DNA from: Bacteroides sp. ET71
Lineage (GTDB): Bacteria; Bacteroidota; Bacteroidia; Bacteroidales; Bacteroidaceae
Assembly: GCF_023336905.1 (NCBI RefSeq)
Contig: NZ_JAMBLS010000008.1
Span: 1-64,000 of the forward strand
DNA length: 64,000 bases
Direction: 5' to 3'
Made by a program: the position numbers and the translations under genes. The notes under the pieces were generated by a model. The model did not search any database. It saw nothing but the letters and a program-made list of their open reading frames with translations, and was not told the DNA's origin. Shown here piece by piece: positions 29,708-50,332 of the stretch (its first letter is position 1; each line of letters starts with the position of its first letter).

Positions 29708-29784
29708 CTGTTACGCACAGTGGGCACGGCTCTTGCCCGGCGGAAGCACGCTCCTTGTCCGCAGCGGGCGCGGCCGTTGTGCGG
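29708..29784 (-). repeat. 22-base periodic degenerate repeats (class A, inverted)
   Basis: On the plus strand CTCTTGCCCGG (29730), TCCTTGTCCGC (29752) and CCGTTGTGCGG (29774) start exactly 22 bases apart; a weaker CTGTTACGCAC lies at 29708. Read on the minus strand they match the core CCGGACAAGAG of the arrays at 38802 and 45625. They occupy the gap between mnmD and the ZnuA-like gene. Confidence 0.6.
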
Positions 29785-29803
29785 CTTGCCGACAGAAAGA
29801 GGC

Positions 29804-30457
29804 TCAGAGAGGCTTGGCGGCACGCAATATCTCGCGCTTGCCCCCCGGAGGGCCCGGCAGGCGCTCTACGGTGAAGCCGGCGCGCTGCAAACGTCGGCGC
29901 ACCTCGCCTTTGGCGCAATAGGTGGTCAGGATACCGCCCGGAGACAGGGCGGCAAAGAGAGTGGCGAAACGTTCCTCGCTCCACATGGCCGGCTGCTTGT
30001 CCGGAGCAAAGGCGTCGAAATAGACCAGGTCGAAAGCCGCGGCAGGCAAGGAACAAGTGGTGAAATCGGCACGGCATTTCCGCAAGGTGAAGTGCGGGGA
30101 CAGCTCCACAGGCATCTCCCACTCGGCTTCGTGCAAGGCGCGCAGACGCCCGGCGGCTCCTTCATAGCCCAGCGCCAGAGCCTCGTCGACAGACAAAGGG
30201 TACAGTTCGAGAGTGGTATAACGGACAGGCCGTCCCGTCCGCTCGGCCTCGTCCCACGTCAGCAAAGCATTCAGCCCCGTGCCAAAGCCTACCTCGAGCA
30301 CCCGGGGCGCCGGAAGCGGACAGGCCCGCAGGCCCATGTCGATGAAGATGTGGACTGATTCCGTGCGCGCGCCTTTCACCGAGTGATAGTGCTCGTCCAG
30401 CGCCGGCACAAACAGCGTGGGGCTGCCGTCGGCTGTCAGTTCGATAAGATGCTCCAT
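29804..30457 (-). CDS. mnmD: tRNA 5-methylaminomethyl-2-thiouridine methyltransferase, MnmD-type
   Basis: SAM-dependent methyltransferase of the stand-alone MnmD/DUF752 family, which makes the last methyl transfer in mnm5s2U at the tRNA wobble position. It shows SPTLFVPALDEHYHSVKGA at the start, the SAM loop LEVGFGTGLNALL, and the family motif YFDAFAPDKQPAMW. It lacks the FAD-dependent MnmC1 half found in E. coli, as is usual in Bacteroidetes. I start it at 30457 (MEHLIEL), preceded by a GGAGG-like run; a Met at 30472 is also possible. Last gene of the purD operon. Confidence 0.85.
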   Translation of the reverse strand: MEHLIELTADGSPTLFVPALDEHYHSVKGARTESVHIFIDMGLRACPLPAPRVLEVGFGTGLNALLTWDEAERTGRPVRYTTLELYPLSVDEALALGYEGAAGRLRALHEAEWEMPVELSPHFTLRKCRADFTTCSLPAAAFDLVYFDAFAPDKQPAMWSEERFATLFAALSPGGILTTYCAKGEVRRRLQRAGFTVERLPGPPGGKREILRAAKPL

Positions 30458-30473
30458 ACCTCCCTCCTCCATT

Positions 30474-30941
30474 CTACATGACACTCTGTATGGCCCACAG
30501 CATCGCGACATAACGGGCCAGCTTCCCGGCAAACATCGACACCGTCGTCAGCCACAAGTTACTGCGCATGAAGCCCAGCGCCACGGCAATGGCCTCGCCC
30601 ACAAAAGGCAGGAAAGCAAAGAAAGCCATCAGCGCGCCGCGCCCTTGCAGGAATCGCTGCACGCGCTCCACCTTCTCGCGCTTCACACCCAGGTATTTCT
30701 CTATCCAGTCAATCCGACCCAAACGCCCCAGCCAATAGCAGGTCAGTCCGCCTAACGTATTGCCCAACGTCGCGGCCAACACACACAGCCAAGGCTCCAG
30801 ACCCATCGCTACCAAGGCACCCATCACCAGCTCCGAACTGAAAGGGACAATGCTGCCTGCCAGCAGGGCCGAAATGAACAAGCCCAGATAGCCCCAGTCC
30901 GTAAGCAACTGCACCAGCGATTCTATCCAAGCTGCATCCAT
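30474..30941 (-). CDS. YqaA-like small membrane protein (VTT/SNARE-associated family)
   Basis: Protein of 155 residues with four to five hydrophobic segments and the glycine-rich features of YqaA/DedA-like proteins (GYLGLFISALLAGSIVPFSSE, ATLGNTLGGLTCYWLGR, FLPFVGEAIAVALG). It is an inner-membrane protein of poorly defined role; related DedA/VTT proteins act in lipid handling. The gene overlaps the end of the upstream membrane-protein gene by 19 bases and is followed closely by mnmD. Confidence 0.8.
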   Translation of the reverse strand: MDAAWIESLVQLLTDWGYLGLFISALLAGSIVPFSSELVMGALVAMGLEPWLCVLAATLGNTLGGLTCYWLGRLGRIDWIEKYLGVKREKVERVQRFLQGRGALMAFFAFLPFVGEAIAVALGFMRSNLWLTTVSMFAGKLARYVAMLWAIQSVM

Positions 30942-31921
30942 AGCTCAAACACATAAAGCCCCGCCGACACAAGCAGCGTGCTGATGAAAAACACGTTGGA
31001 AACGCGCCCGTGGGAAAGCACGAACAGGTGTCCGGCCAGGACACTGACGCAGGCCACCAGAAGGGGAACCAGACAAATGCCGCACTGTGGCTGGAGGAAA
31101 ATATAAAGAAACAGGCAGAAGGAAAGCAAGACGAAAAAGCGCAGGTGGCACCGTGTGCGAATCTTGTCTTCGTGGCCCCAACTGAGGAAGTGGCCGGCCG
31201 ACACGGCGAAGAGCACGAACAGACAGGCCAAAAGCACTGCCCGGCCACCGTCCAGCCCCTGAAACAGCGGGGCGAACCGGGACAGGTCGAGGAACGGAGC
31301 CACGAACAACGGCCAATCACCGTGCCAATAGGCGTGGCCGAACAAGAACCAGTAGGGAAGCATCACGCCCAGCAACGAACCGCAGAAACTCTTGACCGAG
31401 AGCGACTGGAACCAGTAGCCTCCCACCCAGTACAGGGGCAGGAAGAACAGCAACTGGGGCACCGCCAGGCTGCCCAGCCCCAGGCAAGAAGCCGCCAGGT
31501 AGTGGTCGACGGCAGCCGAAGGGGCACGGTAGCTGCGGAACAGGAAGAACAGCGAGGCCACCACCGCAGCCGCAGCCGCATCGCCGGGATGAAGCGGGTA
31601 GAAGGCCGGCCCGACGACAGCCGTCAGCAGCAGGAAGACGGCCGACTGAAAGGAGGCACGCACGCGGATGAGGACGAAGGCATTGTTCAGCATAATCAGC
31701 AGCCAGCCCACCAGCAACTGGCACAGGAAGCCGCCCCACCAGGACGGGAGTTCCGCCAGTCCGCCCACGAACTGTGTCCACAACGCACTGCCACCCCCAA
31801 GGACGGGCCGGACAGGCAGCACGGCCAAGGCCACGGCCCGGCAGGCCACAGCTATGACCAGGGCGGCCGGCAGCGTGTAACGCCACGAGACCACCCTGCT
31901 TTGGAAACGCTTCGTTCGCAT
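30923..31921 (-). CDS. Polytopic membrane protein of unknown function
   Basis: Protein of 332 residues with roughly eight to nine hydrophobic helices (for example LVGWLLIMLNNAFVLIRV, LLACLFVLFAVSAGHFL, ISTLLVSAGLYVFELW). It resembles the Bacteroidetes-specific DUF6427-type proteins often found near purine or nucleotide genes, but I am not sure of that assignment. It starts 30 bases after purD and overlaps the yqaA-like gene. No enzymatic motif was seen. Confidence 0.65.
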   Translation of the reverse strand: MRTKRFQSRVVSWRYTLPAALVIAVACRAVALAVLPVRPVLGGGSALWTQFVGGLAELPSWWGGFLCQLLVGWLLIMLNNAFVLIRVRASFQSAVFLLLTAVVGPAFYPLHPGDAAAAAVVASLFFLFRSYRAPSAAVDHYLAASCLGLGSLAVPQLLFFLPLYWVGGYWFQSLSVKSFCGSLLGVMLPYWFLFGHAYWHGDWPLFVAPFLDLSRFAPLFQGLDGGRAVLLACLFVLFAVSAGHFLSWGHEDKIRTRCHLRFFVLLSFCLFLYIFLQPQCGICLVPLLVACVSVLAGHLFVLSHGRVSNVFFISTLLVSAGLYVFELWMQLG

Positions 31922-31951
31922 ATCGGCTGACGCGGGCTGCGGGTGAAGGGG

Positions 31952-33226
31952 TCAGAGGTCGAAGCCGATGTCGCGACGGAAATACTTGCGGTCGAACTGC
32001 ACCAGGCGGGCGGCGCGATAGCTCTGCTCCAGGGCCTCTTCCTTGGTGGCGCCGTAGGAGCAGACAGCCAGCACGCGGCCTCCGTTGGTCAGGACTTGGC
32101 CGTCTTTCTCCGTCGTACCCGCATGGAACAGGATACTGCCCGTGGCCTCGGCTTCGTCCAGCCCGGCGATGGGCTTGCCCTTCTCGTAAGCCTCGGGATA
32201 TCCGCCGCTGACCAGCATGACGCAGGCGGCTGCGCGCGGGTCTTCTTCCACCGGATGTTGGTCCAGGTTACCGTCGCGCACGCCTTCGAGCAGGTCTACC
32301 AGGTCAGACTTCAGGCGGAGCATGACGCTCTCCGTCTCGGGGTCGCCCATGCGTACGTTGTACTCGATGACGTAAGGCTCGCCGCCCACATTCATCAGTC
32401 CCAGGAAGATGAAACCTTTGTAGAGGATGCCTTCGTCGTGCAAGCCGTTGACGGTAGGTTCGATGATGCGGGTGCGCACCTTTTGCATGAACGCGTCGTC
32501 GGCAAAGGGTACGGGCGTCACGCTGCCCATGCCCCCGGTGTTCAATCCGGTGTCGCCTTCGCCCACGCGCTTGTAGTCTTTGGCCACAGGCAGGACTTGG
32601 TAATGAGTGCCGTCGGTCAGGACGAAGACGCTGCACTCGATGCCGCTCAAGTACTCTTCAATCAATACCGTAGCGCTGGCGTCGCCGAACATGCCGCCCA
32701 GCATGGCTTCCAGCTCGCGGCGTGCCTCATCCAACGTGGGGAGTATCAGGACGCCTTTGCCGGCGCAGAGACCATCGGCCTTCAGCACGTAAGGAGCCGG
32801 CAGAGTGGCGAGAAAGTCCAGTCCGGCGGCCAGCGTGTCGCGTGTCACGCTGAGATGGCGCGCTGTGGGGATGCCGTGGCGCAGCATGAACGCCTTGGCG
32901 AAGTCCTTGCTGCCTTCCAGCCGTGCGCCCGAACGGGTGGGGCCGATGACGGCAATGTGGCGCGTGGCTTCGTCTTCCTGGAAAGCGTCGTAAATGCCCT
33001 GCACCAGCGGGTCTTCCGGACCGACGACCACCATATCGATGCCGCGCTCCAGGGCGAAGGCTTTCAGGCGAGGGAAGTCGGTCGCCCGGATGTCGACATT
33101 CTCGCCCACGCGGCCTGTTCCGGCATTGCCCGGGGCGATGTAGAGTTTCTCCACTTTGTTGCTTTGGGCTATCTTCCACGCCAGTGCGTGTTCGCGGCCG
33201 CCCGAGCCGAGTAGTAAGATGTTCAT
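31952..33226 (-). CDS. purD: Phosphoribosylamine-glycine ligase
   Basis: GAR synthetase, second step of purine synthesis: ATP-dependent joining of glycine to phosphoribosylamine in the cytoplasm. The 424-residue protein shows the N-domain [18 protein letters not shown], the ATP-grasp region ([47 protein letters not shown]) and the C-domain ([13 protein letters not shown]). The start at 33226 matches the family; a Met two codons earlier is possible. It is the first gene of the operon with two membrane proteins and mnmD. Confidence 0.96.
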
Positions 33227-33232
33227 ATCCAA

Positions 33233-33545
33233 TCAGTTTAGTTCTGTTCGTAATCAAGGTTGAAACGCCGATACTGTCTTGACGTTTCCGCCGATACTGT
33301 CTCGGCGCTGCCATCGATGCTGTCTTGATGCTGTCGTCCATACAGCCTTGACAGAGTCGTCACAGGTGCGGCGTTTCGGGGGTCACACCGGTCTCCCCTT
33401 CCGGTTCACTACTGTCAGCACAGCTCGTTCACTACTGTGAACAGGCCGTGTTCACTCCTGTCTTCCGAGCCTGTTCACTACTGTCTCCGGGACGTGTCCG
33501 CTACTGTCTTCCGGCTACCCCTTCAGGGACGGCCCGTCGTGGGGC
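33233..33545. repeat. Array of eleven degenerate 23-base repeats
   Basis: From 33269 to 33521 a core resembling CACTACTGTC recurs with an exact 23-base step. Starts are at 33269, 33292, 33315, 33338, 33361, 33384, 33407, 33430, 33453, 33476 and 33499. The left units read CGATACTGTC, the right ones CACTACTGTC; three in the middle are more decayed. The 13 bases between cores are largely unrelated. The array fills the gap between the dipeptidyl peptidase stop and purD. No open reading frame is likely. Confidence 0.8.
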
Positions 33546-35765
33546 TCAGCGCAGGTAGTCGTCGAAGTAGCGGGTTATCTTCTCGTGGAGGTGTACGCGG
33601 TCGCGCCCCATGACGTTGTGCTTGTGGCACGGGTAGATGAAGAGGTCCGGATAGGTGCGGGCGTCGATGCAGGCCTTGAGGAACGAGAGCGTGTGCTGCG
33701 GCACACAGGTGTCGTCGTGGTCATCGTGAATCAGCAACAGTTTGCCCCGCAACTGCCCGGCCAGGGTCTTGAGGTCGCACGCTTCGTATCCGTCGGGATT
33801 GGTCTGCGGCATGTCCATGTAGCGCTCGCCGTACATCACCTCGTAGTATCTCCAGTCGATGACCGGCCCGCCTGCCACGCCGACCTTGTACAGCTCCGGA
33901 TAGCGCAGCATCAAGGCCGTAGTCATGTGTCCCCCGAAGCTCCACCCGTGCACGCCGATACGGTCGCCGTCCACGTAAGGCAAGGTCTTGAGCCACTCGG
34001 CCGCCTTGGCCTGGTCTTTGCCCTCCTCCATGCCGAGGCGACGGAACGTGCAGTTCTCGAAAGCCAAGCCCCTGTTAGCACTGCCCCGGTTGTCAATGGT
34101 GAAGAGAATGTAACCCCGGTTCGCCATGTAGAGATCCCAGCCGCGGGCGGCGTACATCCAGTTGGCAGCCAGCATCTGTGCGTGCGGCCCGCCGTAGACG
34201 TAAACGATGACAGGGTACTTCTTCTCCGGGTCGAAGTCTGCCGGTTTCAACATGCGCCAGTAGAGTGTCGTCGTATCATCGGCCGCCTTCATCGTGCCCA
34301 CCTCCACCGTCGGCATGACCAGCCCACGGAAGGGGTCGGGAGCAGTGAAGAGGCGGTGCGCACCGGCCACACCCGTCTTGGTAGACAGCAGGTCGATGGC
34401 ACGGGGAACGTCCGGCGTGGAGTAGTTGTCTATCACATACGTGCCCGAAGCCGAGAGCCGGGCGTTGTGCACACCCTCCCCCTTGTCCAGCAAGACGGGG
34501 TCTCCTCCTCGCGCGCGTACCTTATATATATTGCTCTGCATAGGTGACTCCTTCGTGGCCGTGAAGTATATATCCTTCTTCTTCTCATTGAATCCAAGAA
34601 GCGACTGAACCAACCACTCTCCCCGGGTGAGCTGCACGCACTCATACGAAGCGACGAACTTGCCTCCTAACACCGTAGCAAAGCTTTCCAGTGCTTTCTT
34701 CTTCTTCAAGTCAAAGAGGTAGAGGTGGTTCCACCCATCCTGCTGGCTCTGAAGCAAGAACTTCGTGTCGTCCCACGGCAGAAAGACGATGGGCGTCTGG
34801 GGTTCCACATACTTCGGATGTTCTTCCTCATAAAGCACCTCCAGCATACGGCCGGTGCCTGCATCGTAACGGCACAGCTTGGCATGGTTCTGGTCGCGGT
34901 TCAGCTCGATGAGGAAGAGGCTGCGTTCGTCCGGACTCCAACTGATGTTGGTGAAGTAACGGTCCGTAGGGTCTCCGGTCTCCAGATAGAGGGTCTGCCC
35001 AGTAGAGGGATTGTAGATGCCCACCTGCACCCGGTGGCTGGTCATGCCCGCCATCGGATAGCGCACGGGGTCGACCTGTCCCACACGGGCGGTGATGTCC
35101 ACCAGCGGGTACTCCGTCACCATGCGCTCGTCCATGCGGTAGAAAGCCAACAGGTTGCCCGTCGGGCTCCAGAAGGTGCCCTTCGAGATGCCGAACTCGT
35201 TGCGGTGAACTGTCTGCCCGCACACCACGCCTGCCGGCTCGCGGGTCACGGCCTGCCCGTCTACGTAGAGATTGTTCTCCAACGTATAGGCTACGTGGCC
35301 GCTCGTGCTGTTGTAGTCGACATTGGCTGCCTTCGGGTCGGTGTCGCGCACCGAGACGATGGTCTGTGCCGTCCAGTCGTAGGTGATAAACTTACCGTGC
35401 AGGGGGAACAAAGCCTGCGTCTTGTCCGCCCACGGAAAGCTGAGGACGTACAACTGCGCGAGCTTGCCCAGCCCCTTGGCTTCGAGCACCCGGTTGACAT
35501 CGTCGCGGGTAAAGAGCAGCGACTCTCTGCCGTCTGTCGGCCGGATGGCCACCAGCGAGTCTATCCCGGGCTTCACGGCAGTGTCTCCCCACCATTGCAG
35601 GCCGTAGAGGTTTTCCGTATAGCGATAGGTTTCCCCCCCGGGAATGAGGTCTTCCAAGGTAGGCATCTTCAGGGCGGATGCCGGGGAAGCAGTGTTTGAT
35701 TGTGCCATAAGCAAAGCGGGCGCCCCCAGAAGCAGGGCGCACAAGGTTTTAGTCAGTAGTTTCAT
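33546..35765 (-). CDS. Dipeptidyl peptidase IV-like S9 serine peptidase
   Basis: Exported S9B prolyl dipeptidyl peptidase of 739 residues, cleaving X-Pro/X-Ala dipeptides from peptide N-termini in the periplasm. The start at 35765 gives MKLLTKTLCALLLGAPALLMAQ as signal peptide. The first 480 residues form the DPPIV beta-propeller (WSPTGNLLAFYRMDE), the rest the alpha/beta hydrolase with nucleophile Ser in GVHGWSFGGHM, Asp in HDDHDDTCVP and His in CHKHNVMG. The gene start overlaps the end of the methyltransferase gene by 17 bases. Confidence 0.92.
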   Translation of the reverse strand: MKLLTKTLCALLLGAPALLMAQSNTASPASALKMPTLEDLIPGGETYRYTENLYGLQWWGDTAVKPGIDSLVAIRPTDGRESLLFTRDDVNRVLEAKGLGKLAQLYVLSFPWADKTQALFPLHGKFITYDWTAQTIVSVRDTDPKAANVDYNSTSGHVAYTLENNLYVDGQAVTREPAGVVCGQTVHRNEFGISKGTFWSPTGNLLAFYRMDERMVTEYPLVDITARVGQVDPVRYPMAGMTSHRVQVGIYNPSTGQTLYLETGDPTDRYFTNISWSPDERSLFLIELNRDQNHAKLCRYDAGTGRMLEVLYEEEHPKYVEPQTPIVFLPWDDTKFLLQSQQDGWNHLYLFDLKKKKALESFATVLGGKFVASYECVQLTRGEWLVQSLLGFNEKKKDIYFTATKESPMQSNIYKVRARGGDPVLLDKGEGVHNARLSASGTYVIDNYSTPDVPRAIDLLSTKTGVAGAHRLFTAPDPFRGLVMPTVEVGTMKAADDTTTLYWRMLKPADFDPEKKYPVIVYVYGGPHAQMLAANWMYAARGWDLYMANRGYILFTIDNRGSANRGLAFENCTFRRLGMEEGKDQAKAAEWLKTLPYVDGDRIGVHGWSFGGHMTTALMLRYPELYKVGVAGGPVIDWRYYEVMYGERYMDMPQTNPDGYEACDLKTLAGQLRGKLLLIHDDHDDTCVPQHTLSFLKACIDARTYPDLFIYPCHKHNVMGRDRVHLHEKITRYFDDYLR

Positions 35766-37179
35766 AAGAGGTATTGTCAGTCTTCGGTTTCTTTTGCAGT
35801 TCTCTTTCAAGGCGTTTGCGCTCGGTGTACGAGCTGCCCGAGCGGGGTTTGCGCTCCGCCGGACGGTCGTCGCGACGGCCGGGGCGGTTGTCACGGTGTT
35901 CGAAACGTGCCGGACGGTCGGAGCGTCGGCGGTCGGCCCCTCCTTCCGTGCGGAACGGCCGACGCGAAGAAGAGGCCGGGCGTTCCCGGCGTTCAGCAGC
36001 CTCGAAAGGCTTGTCCAGCGCCTCGCCCCCTTCGCGGAAGTCGCGGTACTTCCCGTCGAAAATCTCATACTTGCGGAACTCGCACTCCAACCCGCCGTTC
36101 ATCAAAGGAATACGCTGGCTCGCCTTCAGCCCAATCTGGTCGAAACACTCGTCGCGGTAGGACAAGACCCAGGCCGTGTTTCCCGTAAAGGCGTGTTTCA
36201 GCCGCTCGCCTATCATCTGGTAAAGTCCCAGGAGGTCGCTGCTGGAGATGCGCTCGCCGTAGGGCGGGTTGGTGATGATGATGGATTTCTCTTTCGGCTG
36301 CTCGAACTGCTGGAAAGGCTGTAGCTTCAGCACCACGTCGCGGCTGACGCCGGCGGCCTTCACGTTGCGCTGGGCCACGGCATTGGCCTTGATGGAGTTG
36401 TCGTAGCCGTATATCTTGTGCTCGAAGGGGCGTTCCTGGCTGTCGTCGTTGTAGATACGTTCGAACAGGTCGGGGTCGAAGTCGGGCCACTGTTCGAAAG
36501 CATAACTCTGCCGGAAGACACCGGGGGCGATGTTGCGTGCAATGAGAGCCGCTTCGATGGGAATGGTGCCCGAGCCGCACATGGGGTCGATGAGGTCGCA
36601 CTCGCCCTTCCATCCGGCCAGCAGAATCATACCGGCGGCCAGCACCTCGTTGAGCGGGGCTTCGAGAGTCTCCTGGCGGTATCCGCGACGGTGCAGCGAC
36701 TCGCCGCTGCTGTCCAACGACAAGGTGCAGTCGGTGCCGGCAATGTGGATGTTGAGCTGCACATCAGGCTTGGTGACACTGACACCGGGACGCTTGCCCG
36801 TCTTCTCGCGGAAATAGTCGGCCACGGCATCTTTCACCCGATAGGCTACGAACTTGCTGTGGCGAAACTCTTCGCTGAACACCGTGGCATCCACGGCGAA
36901 AGTCTTGTCGGGCGAAAGATAGTTTTCCCACGGAAGTGCTTTCACCTCTTCGTAGACGGCATCCGGGTCGACTGCACTGAAATGCTTGATGGGCTTCAGG
37001 ATGCGCAGAGCAGTACGCAGGCCGAAGTTGGCCCGGTAGAGCAGTTCTTTGTCACCCCGGAACGACACCATCCGCCGCCCCAATTGCACGTCATCGGCCC
37101 CCATCGCAATCAGTTCAGAGGCCAGCACTTCTTCCAAGCCTTGGAAGGTCTTGGCTATCATTTCAAAGGTCTGTTCCAT
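35749..37179 (-). CDS. THUMP-domain class I SAM-dependent RNA methyltransferase with Arg-rich tail
   Basis: Protein of 476 residues like the N-terminal half of RlmL / the YpsC family, which methylates N2 of a guanine in 23S rRNA. A THUMP RNA-binding domain (about 40-160) is followed by the methyltransferase fold with DPMCGSGTIPIEAALIA (SAM site) and the catalytic TNPPYGERI motif. The start at 37179 is supported by MEQTFEMIAKTFQGLEEVLA, typical of the family. The last 85 residues are low-complexity and rich in Arg, Pro, Asp and Ser (for example RRPFRTEGGADRRRSDRPAR), probably a disordered RNA-binding extension. Confidence 0.88.
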   Translation of the reverse strand: MEQTFEMIAKTFQGLEEVLASELIAMGADDVQLGRRMVSFRGDKELLYRANFGLRTALRILKPIKHFSAVDPDAVYEEVKALPWENYLSPDKTFAVDATVFSEEFRHSKFVAYRVKDAVADYFREKTGKRPGVSVTKPDVQLNIHIAGTDCTLSLDSSGESLHRRGYRQETLEAPLNEVLAAGMILLAGWKGECDLIDPMCGSGTIPIEAALIARNIAPGVFRQSYAFEQWPDFDPDLFERIYNDDSQERPFEHKIYGYDNSIKANAVAQRNVKAAGVSRDVVLKLQPFQQFEQPKEKSIIITNPPYGERISSSDLLGLYQMIGERLKHAFTGNTAWVLSYRDECFDQIGLKASQRIPLMNGGLECEFRKYEIFDGKYRDFREGGEALDKPFEAAERRERPASSSRRPFRTEGGADRRRSDRPARFEHRDNRPGRRDDRPAERKPRSGSSYTERKRLERELQKKPKTDNTSYETTD

Positions 37180-37278
37180 ATATGTTGTTATTAGGAGACG
37201 AGGAAACAAGGCTGCGGACACGAGGGAAACGAGTCTTTTCCTTCCTTGTCCACCGGTGTGCCTGTTCACTCGTTCGCT

Positions 37279-38172: not shown

Positions 38173-38202
38173 CGGGCGTGTCTTAATCTTGATAAACAGC
38201 GA

Positions 38203-38210
38203 CAAAAGTA
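38203..38210 (-). promoter_or_regulatory. cysE promoter -7 box
   Basis: TACTTTTG on the minus strand fits TAnnTTTG, 30 bases before the cysE start; a TTTG at 38238-38235 lies 24 bases upstream. Confidence 0.5.
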
Positions 38211-38750: not shown

Positions 38751-38758
38751 CAAAGATA
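38751..38758 (-). promoter_or_regulatory. Promoter -7 box of the PNPOx-like gene
   Basis: TATCTTTG on the minus strand is an exact TAnnTTTG match 28 bases upstream of the start. Confidence 0.55.
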
Positions 38759-38801
38759 CACAATATCCCCGGAAAACCAGCGGCGCGCCGGGTCTTTGCT
38801 T

Positions 38802-38859
38802 CGTCCGGACAAGAGCCGCGCCCCGTCCGAACAAGAGCGGCGGCCCGTCCGAACAAGAG
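38802..38859. repeat. Three 22-base repeats, core CGTCCGGACAAGAG
   Basis: CGTCCGGACAAGAG (38802), CGTCCGAACAAGAG (38824) and CGTCCGAACAAGAG (38846) are exactly 22 bases apart; the 8-base spacers are GC-rich and differ. They lie in the 466-base gap between divergent genes; the rest of the gap, to 39098, shows no gene. The same core and step recur at 45625-45682. Confidence 0.75.
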
Positions 38860-39098
38860 GCCAGGCTCTTCCGAAGAGGAAGCGGAGGACTCATTGACAG
38901 GGACTTGCGAAACACCTTAAGAGAAGTGTCGCCACACAGAGAAACCCTCTCGGCGTTTGCCCGCAAACGGCCTTGCCCGTTCCGCCGGAGAACACCTGCC
39001 AGCAGAAACAGGACCGGATGCTACATTCCAAACAGACAAAAACAGGCAGGCAACCAAGTTTTTATGAAAAGAAAAAACACAGACGTGCATATTTTTCT

Positions 39099-42035: not shown

Positions 42036-42060
42036 CTCCCCGCCCGACAGGCAGAGACAC

Positions 42061-42096
42061 AAAAAAAGCGGAACCCGGCGGTTCCGCTTTTTTTAT
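42061..42096. terminator. Bidirectional terminator
   Basis: AAAAAAAGCGGAACC pairs with GGTTCCGCTTTTTTT around a four-base loop, with A- and T-runs on both sides. It serves the convergent acyltransferase and GH9 genes. Confidence 0.9.
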
Positions 42097-42112
42097 GCTG
42101 TCCGTTCGAAAG

Positions 42113-43870
42113 TTACTTTTCGGCCGACGGCTGGCTCAGCGCATCCAGTGCCGAAGAGGCAGCTACCAGCGCCGCGCTCCAGTTGATGGCAATCTCGTTG
42201 GAAGCGTACGACTCTTCGGCATCCACATACGACTCGTCAGGCAAAGACGACGGGTAGGCCACCCCGTCTTGCTGCCCCGGATTGGGACCGCCCACCAGCA
42301 AGCCCGGTATGGGAGCGTCTACGCCGTCCGTGGCCGACAAGCGGTGGTGGGGATGCAGCGGGCTCTTCGTACCAAGTCCGGTGACGAAACAGTAGCCCAG
42401 CGGGTTGCGTCCCAAGAGGTAGTCCATGTCGCGGTAAGCGTTCGTCAGGTAGTTGTTCTTACCGCTCAGCAAGTAAGCATAGACCAGCGTCGTAGCCTGA
42501 TTGGCACCCTGTTCGCCCAGGCAGCCCCAGCCGAAGTCGCTCTCGCTGTCGCCGTACGGAGCGTGGAACGCTGCCTCGTTGGCGTCTTTCACCGCATCGG
42601 TGGCGTATGCCAGGAGATAGCTCTTCAGCGAGCCTACGAGCCCGGAAGCCACCACGTCCTTCAACTGCTTCTCGCGTTCGGGAACCAGCCAGGCAAACAT
42701 GCCTAAAGCTGACGTGTTGGCCCACGACGGCAACGTGTAGGAACGGGGCGACGACTTGACGGCTTTAATAAGATAGGATTGCTTGCCCGTGGTGTAATAC
42801 AACTCGGAAGCGGCCCAGAAGAACTCATCGCTCGCATCCTTGTCGCCATACGCACCCGTCGTCACGTCCGGATCATACTGCTGGTTCAAAGCATCCTGGT
42901 CGTAGTAGGCCTCGGGATGTTTCTCTGCCCACGCATACGCACGCTCTGCGGCCCGCAGCGCTTTAGCGGAGAAGCCCGGGTAATCCTTCTGGAAAGCCTT
43001 GTATATCTGGGAAGCTTGCGCCATGACCGCAGCAAAGTCGAGCGTGGCTGTCACGCTTTTCTGCACCACGTAGCGCGGTTGCTGGCAGTCGGCCGGCTTA
43101 ATGAAGGCTTCGAACGACGGGGTTGTCAGCTTGTGATACACGCCACCGTCGGCCGGGTCTTGCATCGTCAGCATCCAGCTCAAGTTGTAATACAGCTCAT
43201 CCAGCAGGTCGGGAGTTGCATTGTTGCTTTCCGGTATGTTCACCTTTTGCTGGGCAAAGTAGTCGGGGAAGAGCCGGTAAACGGCTTGCATCAGTCCTAT
43301 GCTGTAAGCCGAGTTGACGATGTATTTGTTATAGTCGCCTGCGTCATACCAGCCTTTGGGCGAGGAGATGACGTCACCCGCCTTGCGCGAAGGGCCTGCT
43401 GCACTGGGATGAATCTGCACCTGCGTGTCCGGATGTCCGGCGGGACGGTTCCACTGCCCGGCATACTGCTCTTCGATGGGCATGCCTGTGCGCTGGTAGT
43501 AAAAAGATTTCAAGGCGGCGTCGGCCACGACTTGCAAGGGGCGCTCCTTCACTTCGAAGACGGCTGTGTCGCCACCTGCCAGGAGCCAGTACTGCCCGGG
43601 CTCGCTGACGGAGCTGAAGTCCATCGTCGTGCGGGTCTTGCTGCTCCAGGGATTGGGCACGGTGGCCTGCGTGCTGCCTTTCAGCACTTCTGCCCCGGTG
43701 GCTGCATTGAGCACGGTAAATTCTGTCACTCCCACGGTGTCCGCCACGGCCACTTTTTCCTGTTGCGGGAAGTAGCCCACCTGGTTCAAGCGGATGATGT
43801 CAGGGTTAGACTGGCCGCATGCTGCCAGTCCGCCTGCAATGATTCCGAAACAAATCAGTTTGTTGTTCAT
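42113..43870 (-). CDS. GH9 endoglucanase-like lipoprotein
   Basis: Second GH9 of the window, 585 residues. The start at 43870 gives MNNKLICFGIIAGGLAAC, a lipoprotein signal with Cys18. An Ig-like CelD_N domain (IRLNQVGYFPQQEKVAVA, about 25-110) precedes the (alpha/alpha)6 barrel with GWYDAGDYNKY (Asp176, Asp179), HPHHRLS and the C-terminal acid in ESYASNEIAINW (Glu near 559). All landmark residues are present, so it should be active on beta-1,4-glucans. It resembles the periplasmic GH9 enzymes of Bacteroides xyloglucan loci. It is followed by the terminator at 42061 and lies downstream of the acetylesterase gene. Confidence 0.92.
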   Translation of the reverse strand: MNNKLICFGIIAGGLAACGQSNPDIIRLNQVGYFPQQEKVAVADTVGVTEFTVLNAATGAEVLKGSTQATVPNPWSSKTRTTMDFSSVSEPGQYWLLAGGDTAVFEVKERPLQVVADAALKSFYYQRTGMPIEEQYAGQWNRPAGHPDTQVQIHPSAAGPSRKAGDVISSPKGWYDAGDYNKYIVNSAYSIGLMQAVYRLFPDYFAQQKVNIPESNNATPDLLDELYYNLSWMLTMQDPADGGVYHKLTTPSFEAFIKPADCQQPRYVVQKSVTATLDFAAVMAQASQIYKAFQKDYPGFSAKALRAAERAYAWAEKHPEAYYDQDALNQQYDPDVTTGAYGDKDASDEFFWAASELYYTTGKQSYLIKAVKSSPRSYTLPSWANTSALGMFAWLVPEREKQLKDVVASGLVGSLKSYLLAYATDAVKDANEAAFHAPYGDSESDFGWGCLGEQGANQATTLVYAYLLSGKNNYLTNAYRDMDYLLGRNPLGYCFVTGLGTKSPLHPHHRLSATDGVDAPIPGLLVGGPNPGQQDGVAYPSSLPDESYVDAEESYASNEIAINWSAALVAASSALDALSQPSAEK

Positions 43871-43923
43871 AGATGAATGATGTATAAATAAAATAATAGT
43901 CTGTGTGCCGGTTGCCACGGGCC

Positions 43924-43981
43924 GCTTCCGGTGCGCCGGAAGCAAAAGGCCGGTGTGCTGCAACAATGGTCGGCAAAGTAA
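43924..43981 (-). promoter_or_regulatory. GH9 promoter region with hairpin leader
   Basis: TTACTTTG on the minus strand (43981-43974) is a near -7 match. Downstream, in the leader, GCTTCCGG (43924-43931) and CCGGAAGC (43936-43943) form a perfect hairpin with a four-base loop. Confidence 0.4.
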
Positions 43982-44028
43982 CGATTTTTTTCCGGATTCT
44001 CCGCACCGAATGTCTTAAATATTGATAA

Positions 44029-45459
44029 TCACTGCCAATTGTCCGTGCGGAAAGGGACGGCAGGCAGCTCGTTGCCACCTATCAACGTGCCGGGCAGGAA
44101 GTCGCGGAAGGCGTAGCGCACGGCCACGGGGTGGGCGACGGCTTTCGACGAGACGACCAGTTCGTTGGTCTGCCAATGGAGCCAGACGTTGTCGGCGGGG
44201 TGGAAGACATGGTCTTCGCCGGCCACTTCGAAGCCCCGGATGTCGTAGTTACGGCAGATGCCCATCTGGAGGTTGTCGAAGCTAACCCAGGCTTCGTTTC
44301 CTTTCGCCGTCCACGACTTGTACTGCGGCCCCCAGCAGTTGATTTGTTTCATGCCATAGGTGAGGTTGAGCGCCAGGTACGAGAGACGGCGGCCCACCGT
44401 GCGCTTGTTGCGCGGATGGATGTTGAAGAGTTCGTAGGGTTCGACCAGGTCGTTGGTGGAGACCATGGCGCTGTTGGGTATAAGGCTCTGGGCGCGGAAC
44501 TGGGCTTCGCGCAGATAAGCTCCCTGCAGGCCTTGGCCGTTGTCGCCGTAGGCATAGGGAGCTATTTCGACATAGTAAAAAGGAATGTCGCCCAGGCGGA
44601 AGTCGCTGCGCCACAGGCGTACCATGTCGGCCAGGCGTTGGGCATAGGTCTGGTGGGCGCCCACGTTGCCCTCGCCCTGATACCAGATGATGCCTTTGAA
44701 GGTATAGTTGCGGACGGGCACCTGCATCGCATTGTACATCAGCATGGGGCGCATGTAGGCCGGCTCGTACGCATCGATTGCTTCCCTCTGCAGGTTGACG
44801 TCGGGATAGCCTTGCAGCACCTCACGGCTGAGCCAGCTCTCGACACGGGTGCCCCCGAAGGCCGACACGACCATGCCCACGGGGACGCGCAAGGCTTTCT
44901 CCAAGGAAGTGGCGAAAAACCAGGCGGTGGCGCTGAACCCGGCGGCCGTGTGGACGGAAGGCACCTGCCAGGCAGCGGCGCAGTCGTATTCCAACTCATG
45001 AGACATGTTGAGCGGCACGGTAAAGAAGCGGACATAGGGATGGTCGGCGGCGGCAATGACTTCGTCCACCCCGTCCTGCACGCAGCAGCCGCCGAAGCCG
45101 CGCAGGGGCATCTCCATGTTGCTCTGTCCGGAAGCCAGCCAGACTTCGCCCACGAGGACGCCCCGCAGGGTGACAAGCTCGCCGTCGTCGAAGGTGATTT
45201 CATAAGGGGTATAACTGCCGGCGGGAGTCTTGACCGTCAGCAACCAACGCCCGTCGCTGCCGGCGCGACACGTGTGCGTCTGTCCGTCCCACGACGTGCT
45301 CACCCGGACGGTAGCTCCGGCGTCGGCCCAGCCCCACAGGCGCGCGTCGGTCTGTTGCTGGAGCACCATATTGTCGCCCATCAGTGCGGGCAGTTTCACC
45401 TTGGCGCCCGCCGTCAGGGCACCGCACAGAAGAAGGATAGCAAGGATTTTCTTTTTCAT
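44029..45459 (-). CDS. Secreted SASA-domain acetylesterase (sialate O-acetylesterase / CE20-like)
   Basis: SGNH-type carbohydrate esterase of 476 residues with a signal peptide (ends about TAGA). Ser113 in LASGQSNMEMPL is the nucleophile; IIWYQGEGN is the oxyanion block and NIHPRNK the His-containing block. Family members remove acetyl groups from sialic acid or, in CE20-type enzymes, from xyloglucan and other plant glycans. The neighbour downstream is a GH9 glucanase, which favours a plant polysaccharide over sialic acid (inference). The 158-base gap to GH9 has a separate promoter-like box. Confidence 0.88.
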   Translation of the reverse strand: MKKKILAILLLCGALTAGAKVKLPALMGDNMVLQQQTDARLWGWADAGATVRVSTSWDGQTHTCRAGSDGRWLLTVKTPAGSYTPYEITFDDGELVTLRGVLVGEVWLASGQSNMEMPLRGFGGCCVQDGVDEVIAAADHPYVRFFTVPLNMSHELEYDCAAAWQVPSVHTAAGFSATAWFFATSLEKALRVPVGMVVSAFGGTRVESWLSREVLQGYPDVNLQREAIDAYEPAYMRPMLMYNAMQVPVRNYTFKGIIWYQGEGNVGAHQTYAQRLADMVRLWRSDFRLGDIPFYYVEIAPYAYGDNGQGLQGAYLREAQFRAQSLIPNSAMVSTNDLVEPYELFNIHPRNKRTVGRRLSYLALNLTYGMKQINCWGPQYKSWTAKGNEAWVSFDNLQMGICRNYDIRGFEVAGEDHVFHPADNVWLHWQTNELVVSSKAVAHPVAVRYAFRDFLPGTLIGGNELPAVPFRTDNWQ

Positions 45460-45496
45460 AACGGTATCGATTGATTAAACAGACATATGTTTCCCA

Positions 45497-45504
45497 CAAA
45501 AGTA
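45497..45504 (-). promoter_or_regulatory. Acetylesterase promoter -7 box
   Basis: TACTTTTG on the minus strand fits TAnnTTTG 37 bases upstream of the start. Confidence 0.45.
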
Positions 45505-45624
45505 AAGCTCCGCCCTCGAAAAAGCAATGCGCGGAAGTTCTTTTTTCGGAAAAGACAACATCCGAACCAGAAGAAAAACACAAATGATACCCGTCCCCCG
45601 CACCGCCACGCAACAAGCATACTT

Positions 45625-45682
45625 CGTCCGGACAAGAGGCACGCCCGCCCCGAACAACAGCCGTCCTCCGTCCGGACAAGAG
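45625..45682. repeat. Three 22-base repeats, core CGTCCGGACAAGAG
   Basis: CGTCCGGACAAGAG occurs at 45625 and again, identical, at 45669. Exactly halfway, at 45647, lies a decayed copy GCCCCGAACAACAG. The step is 22 bases and the core equals that at 38802. The array lies in the 414-base gap between the divergent acetylesterase and DUF2723 genes; otherwise this gap holds only the two promoters. Confidence 0.75.
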
Positions 45683-45763
45683 CCACGGCCGCAACGCACG
45701 GCAACCATCCCCACAAGGCATCGAAAGCGGAAACTTCCTTAAGCAATACTAATTATCAGACGA

Positions 45764-45798
45764 TTTGCCACGCTTTTCGCAGTAAATCGCTATCTTTG
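45764..45798 (+). promoter_or_regulatory. DUF2723 gene promoter
   Basis: TATCTTTG (45791-45798) with TTTG (45764-45767) 23 bases upstream. The leader would be about 70 bases. Confidence 0.6.
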
Positions 45799-45873
45799 CC
45801 GCGCATATGCCCCGCCGTGCCCGAAAAACACGGGAACAGGGACCAGAAAAAAAGCAACAATCGACGAATCCGA

Positions 45874-48800
45874 ATGAAAAAGTACAGTACCGTAAACAAC
45901 CTGATGGGTTGGATTACTTTCCTCATTGCGGCCACGGTCTATTGCATGACCATCGAACCGACCGCAAGCTTTTGGGATTGCCCTGAGTTCATCACCACCG
46001 GCTATAAGCTGGAAGTGGGCCACCCGCCTGGAGCACCTTTCTTCATGCTCGTGGCCAACCTGTTTTCACAGTTTGCTGCCGATGCCTCGGAAGTGGCCAA
46101 GATGGTCAACTACATGAGTGCGCTGATGAGCGCCGCGTGCATCCTGTTCCTCTTCTGGACCATCACACACTTGGTACGCAAGCTGATAGTGTCGGACGAA
46201 ACGCACATCACCGCCGGACAGACCGTGGCCATCATGGGCAGCGGACTGGTGGGCGCCTTGGCCTATACGTTCAGCGACACGTTCTGGTTCTCGGCCGTCG
46301 AAGGCGAAGTCTACGCTTTTTCATCGCTCTTCACGGCAGTTGTCTTCTGGCTCATCCTGAAGTGGGAAGACGTGGCCGACCAGCCGCACAGCGACCGCTG
46401 GCTGGTGCTCATCGCCTACCTGACGGGGCTCTCCATCGGCGTGCACCTGCTCAACCTGCTCTGCCTGCCTGCCATCGTCCTTATCTATTATTATAAGAAA
46501 GTGCCCCATGCCAACGCCAAGGGCTCTCTGCTGGCACTGCTGGGTTCGGCCGTACTGGTGGCCGTGGTGCTCTACGGCATCGTGCCGGGCATCGTGAAGG
46601 TGGGCGGATGGTTTGAGCTGCTGTTCGTCAACACGCTGGGCATGCCCTTCAACACGGGCGTCTTGGTGTACGTCGTCCTGCTGGCCGCTGCACTTATCTG
46701 GGGCGTGTACGAGACATATATGCAACACAGCCCGTTGCGCATGGCCCTGTCCTTCATCCTGACCATCGCTATGCTGGGCATCCCCTTCTACGGACACGGA
46801 GCCGGCTCGGTGGTCATCGGCCTCATCGTCATTGCCCTGATGTGGTTCTACCTCCGCCCGCAGACGCAAGCCGCCCTTAAGGAGAAGTGGCGCGTCAGTG
46901 CCCGTGCCCTCAACACGGCCTTGCTGTGCACGCTGCTCATCGTGGTGGGATACTCTTCATACGCCCTTATCGTGATACGCTCGACGGCCAACACGCCGAT
47001 GGACCAGAACTCGCCGGAAGACATCTTCACGCTGGGCGAATACCTGGGCCGTGAACAGTACGGCACACGCCCCCTGTTCTACGGGCAGACGTTCTCCTCA
47101 CAAGTAGCCCTCGACGTGAAAGACGGTTACTGCGAGCCACGCGTCAATAGCGAAGACACCAAGTTCATCCGCAAGGAGAAGGCCACGCCCGACGAGAAAG
47201 ACAGCTACATCGAAATCCCCGGACGCATCGAATATGAGTATGCGCAGAACATGCTCTTCCCACGCATGTACAGCTCGGCACACGCGCAGTACTACAAAGC
47301 GTGGATGAACATCAAGGGCCGCGACGTCCCGTTCGACCGTTGTGGCGAAATGATAATGGTCAACGTCCCCACCCAATGGGAGAACATCAAGTTCTTCTTC
47401 TCCTACCAGCTCAACTGGATGTACTGGCGATACTTCATGTGGAACTTCGCCGGACGGCAAAACGACATCCAGGGCAACGGAGAGATTGAACACGGCAACT
47501 GGATTACGGGTATCTCTTTCATAGACAACTGGCTGATAGGAGACCAGGAATACCTGCCCACCGAACTCAAGGAAAACAAGGGGCACAACGTGTTCTACTG
47601 CCTGCCGCTGCTGCTGGGCATCATCGGCCTCATCTGGCAGGCCTACCGCGGACGCCGGGGCATCCAACAGTTCTGGGTAGTATTCTTCCTGTTCTTCATG
47701 ACGGGCATCGCCATCGTACTTTACCTGAACCAGACCCCCATGCAGCCCCGCGAACGCGACTATGCCTACGCCGGCTCGTTCTACGCCTTTGCCATCTGGA
47801 TAGGCTTGGGCGTGATGGGAATCACCCAGCTCATCGCCAACCTGACGCACAAGCGTAAGGAAGAGTGGACAACCGAACAGATGGCCGCCTGGAACGAAGG
47901 CACATGGATGCCCGACATCCGCCCCTCGCTGCCTGTCGCCCTGCTGGTGTCACTGGCTTGTCTGCTGGTACCCATACAGATGGCGAGCCAGACATGGGAC
48001 GACCACGACCGCAGCGACCGCTACATGGCCCGCGACTTCGGCTACAACTACCTGATGTCGCTCCAGGAAAGCGGCAACCCCATCATCTACACCAACGGCG
48101 ATAATGACACCTTCCCGCTGTGGTACGGACAAGAGACGGAAGGCTACCGGCCCGACGCACGCACCTGCAACCTGTCTTACCTGCAAACCGACTGGTACAT
48201 CGACCAGATGAAGCGCCCGGCCTACGACAGTCCGTCGCTGCCCATCACGTGGGACCGCATGGAGTATGTGGAAGGCACCAACGAATACATCCCCGTGCAA
48301 CCCGAAGTGGCCAAGAGCCTCGACCAACTCTATGCACAGGCCAAGAAAGAGGCCCTGGCCGGAAACCCCGAGGTGCTGGTGAACATCCAGAAGGAGTTTG
48401 GCGACAACCCCTACGAGCTGAAAAACATCCTGAAATACTGGGTAAGGAATCCCAGCAACAAGGACCTCAACATCATACCGACCGACAGCATCGTCATCAA
48501 GGTAGACAAAGAGGCCGTGCGCCGCAGCGGCATGATGATTCCGGGCGACAGCATACCGGACTACATGCACATCTCACTGAAAGGAAAACGCGCCCTCTAC
48601 AAGAGCGAACTGATGATGCTCGAGATGCTGGCCGAGGCCAACTGGGAACGACCCATCTACATTGCCATCAGCGTGGGCACGGACAACCAACTGGGCATGG
48701 CCAACCACTTCATACAGGAGGGACTGGCCTATCGGTTCACGCCGTTTGACAACACGAAGACGGGCGTCAGCCTTGACTCGGAGAAGATGTACGACAACCT

Positions 48801-49299
48801 GATGCACAAGTTCCGCTACGGGGGCATCGACAAGCCGGGCATCTACATCGACGAAAATGCCCTGCGCATGTGCTACTCGCACCGCCGCATCTTCGCGCAA
48901 CTGGTGCAGCAACTGATGAAGGAGGGTAAGCGCGACAAGGCGAAAGCGGCACTGGACTATGCGGAGAAGATGATTCCTGCCGTCAACGTGCCCTACGACT
49001 ACCAGAACGGCGCCCTGCAAATGGCCGAGGCCTATTACCAACTGGGTGAAACGGAGGCGGGCGACCGCATAGCTGGGGCACTGGCCGACAAGTCGATGGA
49101 ATATCTGACGTGGTACCTCAGCCTGGACGAAACACGCCTGGCCATCTCCGTGCAGGAGTGCGAATACCACCTCTCGCTGCTCAACTCGGAAATCAGCCTG
49201 ATGAAGAAATACGGCTCGACGATGACGGAACAGTATGAGGAGAAATTCGGCGAACTGTACCACCAGTATGTCACGGCCATGGGATATAAAGCAGAATAA
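45874..49299 (+). CDS. DUF2723 multi-pass membrane protein, GT-C-type glycosyltransferase-like
   Basis: Large inner-membrane protein of 1141 residues. About the first 460 and a block near 580-690 hold many hydrophobic helices; the C-terminal 400 residues are soluble, with TPR-like helices at the end (GALQMAEAYYQLGETEAG). The N-terminal loop ASFWDCPEFITTGYKLEVGH followed by PPGAP is the hallmark of DUF2723, whose acidic residue fits a GT-C catalytic site. The family includes human TMEM260, an O-mannosyltransferase, so a role in protein or lipid glycosylation at the periplasmic face is plausible. The start at 45874 removes a non-conserved 129-codon leader. The deacetylase gene follows after 5 bases. 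Confidence 0.85.
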   Translation: MKKYSTVNNLMGWITFLIAATVYCMTIEPTASFWDCPEFITTGYKLEVGHPPGAPFFMLVANLFSQFAADASEVAKMVNYMSALMSAACILFLFWTITHLVRKLIVSDETHITAGQTVAIMGSGLVGALAYTFSDTFWFSAVEGEVYAFSSLFTAVVFWLILKWEDVADQPHSDRWLVLIAYLTGLSIGVHLLNLLCLPAIVLIYYYKKVPHANAKGSLLALLGSAVLVAVVLYGIVPGIVKVGGWFELLFVNTLGMPFNTGVLVYVVLLAAALIWGVYETYMQHSPLRMALSFILTIAMLGIPFYGHGAGSVVIGLIVIALMWFYLRPQTQAALKEKWRVSARALNTALLCTLLIVVGYSSYALIVIRSTANTPMDQNSPEDIFTLGEYLGREQYGTRPLFYGQTFSSQVALDVKDGYCEPRVNSEDTKFIRKEKATPDEKDSYIEIPGRIEYEYAQNMLFPRMYSSAHAQYYKAWMNIKGRDVPFDRCGEMIMVNVPTQWENIKFFFSYQLNWMYWRYFMWNFAGRQNDIQGNGEIEHGNWITGISFIDNWLIGDQEYLPTELKENKGHNVFYCLPLLLGIIGLIWQAYRGRRGIQQFWVVFFLFFMTGIAIVLYLNQTPMQPRERDYAYAGSFYAFAIWIGLGVMGITQLIANLTHKRKEEWTTEQMAAWNEGTWMPDIRPSLPVALLVSLACLLVPIQMASQTWDDHDRSDRYMARDFGYNYLMSLQESGNPIIYTNGDNDTFPLWYGQETEGYRPDARTCNLSYLQTDWYIDQMKRPAYDSPSLPITWDRMEYVEGTNEYIPVQPEVAKSLDQLYAQAKKEALAGNPEVLVNIQKEFGDNPYELKNILKYWVRNPSNKDLNIIPTDSIVIKVDKEAVRRSGMMIPGDSIPDYMHISLKGKRALYKSELMMLEMLAEANWERPIYIAISVGTDNQLGMANHFIQEGLAYRFTPFDNTKTGVSLDSEKMYDNLMHKFRYGGIDKPGIYIDENALRMCYSHRRIFAQLVQQLMKEGKRDKAKAALDYAEKMIPAVNVPYDYQNGALQMAEAYYQLGETEAGDRIAGALADKSMEYLTWYLSLDETRLAISVQECEYHLSLLNSEISLMKKYGSTMTEQYEEKFGELYHQYVTAMGYKAE

Positions 49300-49304
49300 A
49301 ACCC

Positions 49305-49967
49305 ATGTTTATCGAACAACCTCCTGAAATAGTCCGCAAGCTCTACCCCAGCGCACTGTGGCGGACGGACCCGACGGCGAAGACTGTCTGCCTGACCTTC
49401 GACGACGGGCCCATCCCCGAGGTGACGCCGTGGGTGCTCGACGTGCTGGCACGGCACGGCGTCAAGGCCACGTTCTTCATGGTGGGCGACAACATCCGCA
49501 AGCACCCAGACGTCTTCCGCCAGGTCGTCGAGCAGGGGCACCGCATCGGCAACCACACGTTCCACCACCTGCGAGGCTTCGAGAACAGCTCCAACCAATA
49601 CCTCGAAGACGTCCGCCGGGCGCACGACTTCATGCTCGAAGCCTGCCACGACCTGCCTCCCGAGCAGGTCGAAGCTGCCCTGCACCCCATCCTCTTCCGC
49701 CCGCCCCACGGGCACATGACCTGGGGGCAGTACATGGTGTTGCGCCACCATTGCCGCATCGTCATGTGGGACCTCGTCACGCGCGACTACTCGAAGAAGC
49801 TGCGCCCGCCGCAGGTGCTGGCCAACGTCATGCGCTACGCCCGCAACGGCTCCATCATCACCTTCCACGACTCGCTGAAGTCGTGGACCAACGGCAACCT
49901 GCCCTATGCCCTGCCCCGCGCCCTGGATTTCCTCCGCGAAGAGGGCTACACCTTCTGCCTGCTCTGA
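49305..49967 (+). CDS. Polysaccharide deacetylase (NodB/CE4 family)
   Basis: Zn-dependent deacetylase of 220 residues. All NodB motifs are present: TFDDGP (31-36), the metal-binding HTFHH (84-88), RPPHGH, the motif around WDLVTRDYS, and ITFHDS with the last His. No signal peptide is visible, so it may act on cytoplasmic or membrane-bound precursors. It is 5 bases downstream of the DUF2723 gene and so probably in the same operon, suggesting a shared glycan pathway. Confidence 0.92.
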   Translation: MFIEQPPEIVRKLYPSALWRTDPTAKTVCLTFDDGPIPEVTPWVLDVLARHGVKATFFMVGDNIRKHPDVFRQVVEQGHRIGNHTFHHLRGFENSSNQYLEDVRRAHDFMLEACHDLPPEQVEAALHPILFRPPHGHMTWGQYMVLRHHCRIVMWDLVTRDYSKKLRPPQVLANVMRYARNGSIITFHDSLKSWTNGNLPYALPRALDFLREEGYTFCLL

Positions 49968-50332
49968 CCCCCTCTCCTCCCCCGCCGCCTCTGGACACAC
50001 CTGTTCCAAGGCTACTGCCGCAGTGACCCTTCGCCACACGCCCTATTCAGCCACAGGGACAGGCAGTAGTGACCCTTTGCGAATAGGCCTATGGTGGCTG
50101 CATATTCCACGTGGAATAAACTGCATATCCCACGTGAGATAAGTTTCATATCCCATGTGGAATAAACTTCTTATCTCATGTGGAATAAGTTTTCTATCTC
50201 ACGTGGAATAAGAATCCTATCCCACTACAGATAATAAGGGTGAAAAGGCCTATTGACACAGCCTGCATAGCGGTATACAGGCAGCGTCAATAGGAGTGAT
50301 GGCGGAGGGTGAAAGGGAGGGGCAGCGGAGGG
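49968..50332. repeat. Gap with two 23-base repeat arrays, one of perfect dyads
   Basis: Units starting at 50101, 50124, 50147, 50170, 50193 and 50216 step by exactly 23 bases. Each carries a version of TATCCCACGTGGAATAA; in the first the core ATTCCACGTGGAAT is a perfect palindrome. Upstream, AGTGACCCTTCG (50022) and AGTGACCCTTTG (50068) are 46 bases, two 23-base steps, apart, in a different phase. The gap lies between the convergent deacetylase and exonuclease III genes and holds no gene. Confidence 0.8.

Follow-up and report, generated by a model that had tools for sequence, protein, structure and literature searches.

Intergenic tandem arrays with a step of 22-23 bp in Bacteroidaceae genomes as a possible phased DNA lattice

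The genome of Bacteroides sp. ET71 carries many short arrays of degenerate tandem units, mostly in intergenic regions, whose step of 22-23 bp is close to two helical turns. We describe these arrays in a stretch of 64,000 nucleotides (contig NZ_JAMBLS010000008.1, positions 1 to 64,000; hereafter, the window) and in further samples of the same genome and of other bacteria. Among the samples taken, the arrays are restricted to Bacteroidaceae (in the wide sense, Prevotella included) and are near absent elsewhere. About half of the arrays have units with dyad arms, the units keep their register, the sequence families are nearly exclusive to single species, and positions are partly common with one relative. 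The best explanation, a tentative one to which we give slightly less than even chances, is that half-sites of about 11 bp form a phased DNA lattice for a putative dimeric or oligomeric DNA-binding protein.

All seven arrays of the window are intergenic and consist of tandem units of 22-23 bp. An earlier sequence-only reading had reported repeats of step 22 or 23 in five gaps. All five are confirmed: the repeats are strong at 33.3, 38.8 and 50.1 kb, real but with alternating units at 45.6 kb, and borderline at 29.7 kb, where the array is accepted by its profile. To these we add a weak lag-22 array at 20.2 kb, the dyad symmetry of the units and the occurrence of such arrays across the family.

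Step and register of the units

The first sample included 464 kb, i.e., the window and twenty 20-kb stretches of the same genome, some of which (C19, C22) were picked for holding the shared core. An early scan of this sample at lags 12-60 gave matches solely at lags 12, 21-24 and 33 and at the doubled lags 44, 46 and 48; a Markov control gave no match at all. The unit detector required three units with a mean pairwise identity of at least 0.62 at lags of 15-35. It found 5 arrays at lag 21, 28 at lag 22, 9 at lag 23, 2 at lag 24 and one each at lags 26 and 33. The remaining matches were at lags 15 (12), 16 (3) and 18 (4) alone, with zero arrays at lag 25 or 27-32. Thus 44 real arrays at lags 20-25 stand against none at lags 18-35 in two runs of an order-1 Markov control, whose matches are confined to lags 15-17. 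The spectrum of a second sample of 400 kb from the same genome is similar (4 arrays at lag 21, 26 at 22, 3 at 23, one each at 24 and 33, and others at 15, 16 and 18 alone). The sequence-only reading had tied its claim to a genome-wide excess of lags 22 and 23 over control, and this excess is present in both samples.

Six of the 44 arrays lie within predicted genes (4 at lag 21 and 2 at lag 22, one of the latter belonging to the dispersed family and lying where a stretch ends); they were kept in the lag spectrum and in the dyad count given below. Outside the three-unit cores, 102 units are exactly in register, 11 are displaced by 1-4 bp (chance would give about 4) and 14 lie elsewhere, in a count that is favourable to register because the cores were detected without gaps. 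Arrays with a step of 24 bp, unlike the degenerate 22-bp arrays, occur at L007 1073-1428 and L017 8833-9062; one of them has 14 units with two near-identical sub-blocks.

Distribution among lineages

At a threshold of 0.64, arrays with lags 21-23 occur at 4.2 to 8.4 per 100 kb in the genome under study, its close relatives, genomes of the same genus, named Bacteroides and loci of the Phocaeicola/Prevotella type. The closest named relatives of its TMEM260-like protein are likewise Bacteroides. In E. coli and in samples from other families of the order, from other orders and from other classes, the density falls to 0.4-1.0 per 100 kb, with no array at lag 22. Small differences between groups should carry no weight, given that every named locus is taken from around one gene and that each outgroup sample covers 100-223 kb.

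Structure of the units

Dyad symmetry is significant (p<0.05 against shuffled columns) in 39 of 81 arrays, and in 9 of 34 arrays of the second sample. In arrays with a dyad z of at least 2, pairing is maximal at 5-8 bp from the unit centre, and the arms are more conserved than both the centre and the unit border, a pattern that the shuffled control lacks. Conserved columns also cluster over 127 intergenic arrays (autocorrelation 0.07 vs -0.05). About half of the arrays fit the description of a phased array, in which dyad half-sites stand at whole helical turns and register is kept; several arrays of the dispersed family have no significant dyad.

Two kinds of array and their genomic context

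There are two kinds of array: locus-specific ones near gene 3' ends (33.3 and 50.1 kb) and a dispersed family found mostly upstream of genes (29.7, 38.8 and 45.6 kb). The earlier observation that each locus has its own core while some cores are shared holds true, the shared ones being those of 29.7, 38.8 and 45.6 kb; the pattern is that of one large species-specific family and many small ones.

The pooled set contains 156 arrays at 121 loci, of which 127 intergenic arrays with both flanks were kept for the context analysis. The arrays with z≥2 (n=63) occupy 46 tandem, 13 convergent and 4 divergent gaps; those with z<1 (n=43) occupy 26, 4 and 13, respectively; 21 arrays with z between 1 and 2 belong to neither group. 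In tandem gaps, both groups are near the 3' end of the upstream gene, with a mean relative position of 0.19 (z≥2) and 0.25 (z<1).

In 864 kb there are 45 loci of the dispersed family, whose consensus is about CGCGGCTCTTGTCCGGAAGAGC. By the strands of the flanking genes these are 16 ++, 10 --, 14 -+ and 2 +-, with 2 more within predicted genes and 1 lacking two flanks. The median distance to flanking gene starts is 164 bp (54 distances). Divergent genes flank 14 of its 42 intergenic loci vs 64 of 330 gaps of at least 100 bp. Only 1 of 37 intervals between its loci is shorter than 3 kb vs 7.2 expected, in a set that includes the loci that prompted the spacing idea as well as the new region C3 60-240 kb; none of 47 intervals is so short among 55 loci from the best 150 candidates per genome in a model search. 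The density of these 55 loci varies among contigs C1-C8 (p 0.00035). We claim no macrodomain because the density is low in C1 and C3 where GC content is low. The joined loci L235-L243 (positions 95573-124765, C3 155.6-184.8 kb) are crowded with other tandem elements that break the spacing rule, namely GACGAG/GTTAAC-like ones, ATGAGTAAATGG-like ones and three CATGTTACCCcAC blocks about 175 bp apart; they have no significant dyad.

A partition or termination factor, proposed earlier as a possible binder, is unsupported, since there are about 45 dispersed-family loci in 864 kb and most of them are upstream of genes.

Species-specific families at partly common positions

Profiles were built from the dominant family of each species and run across all samples. 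The ET71 profile matched 22 loci in the 464 kb of its own genome and 0 in five other samples. Among the relatives, the G015 profile found 5 loci in 177 kb of G015, the G007 profile 2 in 227 kb of G007, and the G016 profile 12 in 198 kb of G016 plus one site each in L046 and L047; the L047 profile gave 3 matches in L047 and 4 in G016. In the whole-genome model search, the ET71 family had at least 110 matches within ET71 and a single one, in G002, across nine other genomes, among the best 150 candidates per genome.

Different families can nevertheless share positions. For conserved gene pairs and arrays of any family, ET71 and G015 both have an array in 4 cases, with 2 in ET71 only and 4 in G015 only (p 0.012). 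All five G015-family loci are in gaps that hold the ET71 family, four of them clearly and one at a score of 11.3 (threshold 18), in a score range that is uncommon (13 of 85 ET71 gaps of at least 200 bp score at least 10). The G015 stretches were mostly picked by synteny with array-rich stretches of ET71; seven others contain no G015-family locus. The correspondence at 38.8 kb depends on one common flanking gene. At C22 26.5 kb, a single gap is occupied in ET71, in G015 and in G016 by the family proper to that genome, 15-60 bp past a conserved TTTTAACCG (distances by eye). Upstream of the TMEM260-like gene, where the 45.6-kb array lies in the window, L047 and G007 hold different 22-bp arrays. 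The purD/DPPIV gap measures 319 bp in ET71, with its arrays, and 156 bp in G015, whose dyad array there also has a 23-bp step but is a different one.

Two further observations concern the region before the TMEM260-like gene. A TACTAATTATCAG-like element (45747-45759 in the window) and a TATCTTTG-like box are kept there in several relatives; the adjoining array is not. The Phocaeicola loci L059 and L060 have in this place a long hairpin with an A-tract and a T-tract, resembling a two-way terminator.

Arrays of the window

Table 1. Arrays and associated boxes of the window
Coordinates	Strand	Feature	Evidence
20164..20239		extra weak 22-bp array, 3 units, outside the five gaps	repeat scan, unit detector
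29703..29790	+	weak 22-bp array, 3 units, dispersed own-species family	profile matches
33257..33362		23-bp array, GATACTGTCT core, dyad z 3.0, in purD/DPPIV gap	step print-out, unit detector, dyad test
33391..33521		23-bp array, GTTCACTACTGTC core, dyad z 1.8, in purD/DPPIV gap	step print-out, unit detector, dyad test
38751..38758	-	TATCTTTG box between 38.8-kb array and gene start	sequence inspection
38787..38891	-	22-bp array, dispersed own-species family, dyad z -1.6	repeat scan, unit detector, profile
45600..45709	-	22-bp array, same dispersed family, strong and degenerate units alternating	step print-out, detector, profile
45791..45798	+	TATCTTTG box downstream of 45.6-kb array	sequence inspection
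50090..50238		23-bp array, six palindromic units, TATTCCACGTGGAATA type, dyad z 2.5	repeat scan, detector, dyad test

The 29.7-kb array, between a ZnuA-like gene and a methyltransferase gene (both on the minus strand), is borderline taken alone: its three units barely reach the detector threshold (0.62), and a general repeat scan found none there. We count it as real because its units match the profile of the 38.8- and 45.6-kb units in the opposite orientation. The two arrays at 33 kb share a single 23-bp register, with a core-to-core distance of 138 bp (6 x 23), and 24 bp separate the second one from the 3' end of the DPPIV gene. The 38.8-kb array is upstream of a hexapeptide-transferase-like gene (minus strand). 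The 45.6-kb array occupies the divergent gap that precedes the TMEM260-like gene; strong and degenerate units alternate in it, which makes its signal higher at lag 44 than at lag 22. At both these loci the TATCTTTG box stands between array and gene; we take it to resemble the Bacteroides -7 box. The 50.1-kb array lies between convergent genes, and its core CCACGTGGAATA occurs at two more sites of the genome (a reversed-pattern control gave 1 match). A nearby AATTGAG-type tandem repeat (51090-51142) belongs to a short repeat that is dispersed and has numerous matches in G007, G008, G015 and G016.

Possible nature of the arrays

In the proposed lattice, half-sites of about 11 bp, or one helical turn, often alternating in orientation, would build the repeat of 22-23 bp, and a dimeric or oligomerising Bacteroidaceae DNA-binding protein would line up along the helix on one face. 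In ET71 the dispersed family would be the main version, its recognition sequence changing between species while some positions stay, and the small dyad families near gene 3' ends would be local variants of this design with a fast turnover. That the dispersed family is placed upstream of genes, at positions partly common with G015, suggests a role related to promoters or domains. The earlier proposal of protein binding on one face of the DNA agrees with this and fits the two-turn step, the dyad arms, the register and the lack of RNA-level constraint best, with the protein itself being what we infer. A broader version seems to us rather doubtful: Bacteroidaceae would have chromosome-wide two-turn-phased lattices defined by geometry and not by a fixed sequence, with one dominant upstream family per species at spacings rarely below 3 kb, and the recognition sequence would be replaced jointly at many loci with the divergence of species, which would imply a fast-evolving binding partner that organises promoters or topological domains.

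Several results weigh against the lattice. A single sequence-specific protein cannot bind all of the many families of one genome, since their sequences differ; we name no protein as the binder, and lattice binding is put forward here as a putative property. Several dispersed-family arrays, the one at 38.8 kb included, have a dyad z near or below zero, and the two kinds of array are not cleanly separated by their position in tandem gaps. The association with G015 is sensitive to gap length (p 0.078 with gaps of at least 60 bp, 0.049 with at least 100 bp and 0.5 with at least 150 bp), the pooled position test weakens with gap length (0.021, 0.095, 0.078, 0.30), and there is no significant association for G016 and G007. 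The ET71 locus at C22 22.4 kb has no G015 counterpart. Of the ET71-family gaps with conserved neighbours, the G016 family is in 1 of 4 and the G007 family in 0 of 3, and the G016 family is also in one gap lacking the ET71 family. Taken over all arrays, the wide spacing of the first sample (1 of 27 intervals below 3 kb, 7.2 expected) was not replicated in the second (5 of 28, 5.1 expected). Pooled relatives gave 10 of 44 vs 16.4 expected (minimum gap 60, p 0.012), with p of about 0.03-0.07 for G015 and 0.08-0.11 for G007, and clearly no effect for G016 and the Prevotella-type group. Finally, the locus-specific arrays are gained and lost between species in the manner expected of repeats without function: the purD/DPPIV gap is 13-44 bp long and array-free in G007, G013, L050, L051 and L055, and the deacetylase/endonuclease gap of the 50.1-kb array is only 2 bp in L046.

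The strongest rival is a serious one, and we regard it as quite possible. A Bacteroidaceae-specific process of replication or repair, e.g., iterated fold-back or slippage, would copy a 22-bp seed in tandem; the copies would be non-functional, would last where genes and promoters stay unbroken, and would owe their unit length to the machinery and not to a function. Presence or absence of arrays between related species, arrays that fill most of a gap, the many small families and the lack of covariation within units agree with this process, as does the position near the upstream gene's 3' end in tandem gaps, which is expected where promoters are avoided. It explains less readily why the arms of dyad arrays are more conserved than loop and spacer, why shifted units are few, and why the dispersed family keeps apart from itself yet shares gaps with a G015 family of different sequence, up to three species having their own families in one gap past TTTTAACCG. 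The argument of the sequence-only reading that drift could not keep the step while losing the spacer was overstated, because substitutions alone keep the step too; the conserved arm blocks and the rarity of shifted units argue better.

Tandem hairpins acting in RNA, as terminators, 3' stabilisers or attenuators after transcription, are improbable. The units do have an arm-loop-arm form, and arrays with z≥2 are near 3' ends and prefer convergent gaps to divergent ones. However, the sense strand has no excess of G.U over A.C (72 vs 115), no Rfam family reaches the gathering score in the window, and the dispersed family is mostly upstream of genes, often divergent ones. An unbiased test found no covariation of arms within units, a lack that low power could explain, which also limits its value for the lattice. 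A first positive covariation signal was dropped, since arrays with z<1 gave an equal difference, i.e., it was a selection bias. The lack of covariation and of a G.U excess, together with the step, the dyad arms and the register, suggests that the arrays act as double-stranded DNA and that their binder would be a dimer or an oligomer.

Mobile repeats of the REP/RAYT or MITE type, moved by a transposase, would agree with the dispersed, nearly species-specific and intergenic occurrence of the arrays and with their superficial likeness to REP and to BrickBuilt, but are very improbable in view of the searches that follow. No match to the Y1 transposase (Y1_Tnp) was found in the ET71 genome (G000), G015 (84% complete), G016, G007 and G013 (89% complete), whereas 5 of the 12 genomes searched do match, and the REP/RAYT assignment was rejected on this ground. 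A MITE was rejected for the dispersed family as well: the 90 flanks of its 45 loci form 6 non-self pairs, and inverted matches across arrays average 6.4 vs 6.2 in mismatched pairs, the single locus C3 172.9 kb having a 33-bp inverted flank match. Single arrays used as queries had no match in E. coli genomes, plasmids and phages, nor did the 38.8-kb array in plasmid and phage collections.

Comparison with known systems

REP/BIME elements with RAYT transposases are short, palindromic, species-specific and intergenic, and are often near gene 3' ends. The units described here share these properties and answer to the general description of a REP, a short palindromic dispersed intergenic unit, with a significant dyad in 39 of 81 arrays. 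They differ in the tandem step of 22-23 bp, in the many sequence-unrelated families and in the missing Y1 match in the genome and four relatives. Operator and iteron arrays for dimeric DNA-binding proteins have dyad half-sites at helical phase, as do about half of the arrays here; the present arrays, in contrast, occupy dozens of loci, vary in sequence by locus and species, and have a binding protein that is putative. Unlike CRISPR, with its identical repeats and unique spacers, the present units vary in arms as well as in spacers.

The sequence-only reading knew of no named element like this. The nearest that we found is BrickBuilt of Porphyromonas gingivalis, which has intergenic 23-nt tandem units in many dispersed copies, is species-limited, and mixes conserved and non-conserved positions within the unit (PMC4596501). 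The present arrays are alike in all these respects. BrickBuilt is one family inside a MITE with a leader, a tail and IS5-type terminal inverted repeats (PMC4596501); the present arrays fall into many families, which in general have neither flanks nor terminal repeats in common, and turn over between species across Bacteroidaceae.

Conclusions

If the lattice is real, an extensive level of intergenic organisation exists in gut Bacteroides and Prevotella; a search of the open-access literature with narrow term combinations, most subscription journals being outside it, found no description of such arrays in Bacteroidaceae. DNA-binding specificity would then be rewritten between species at many sites at once, with some positions staying, which would be a bacterial case of dispersed-site co-evolution. 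If the arrays are non-functional instead, they would reveal a process, specific to the lineage, by which copies of fixed length are made in tandem.

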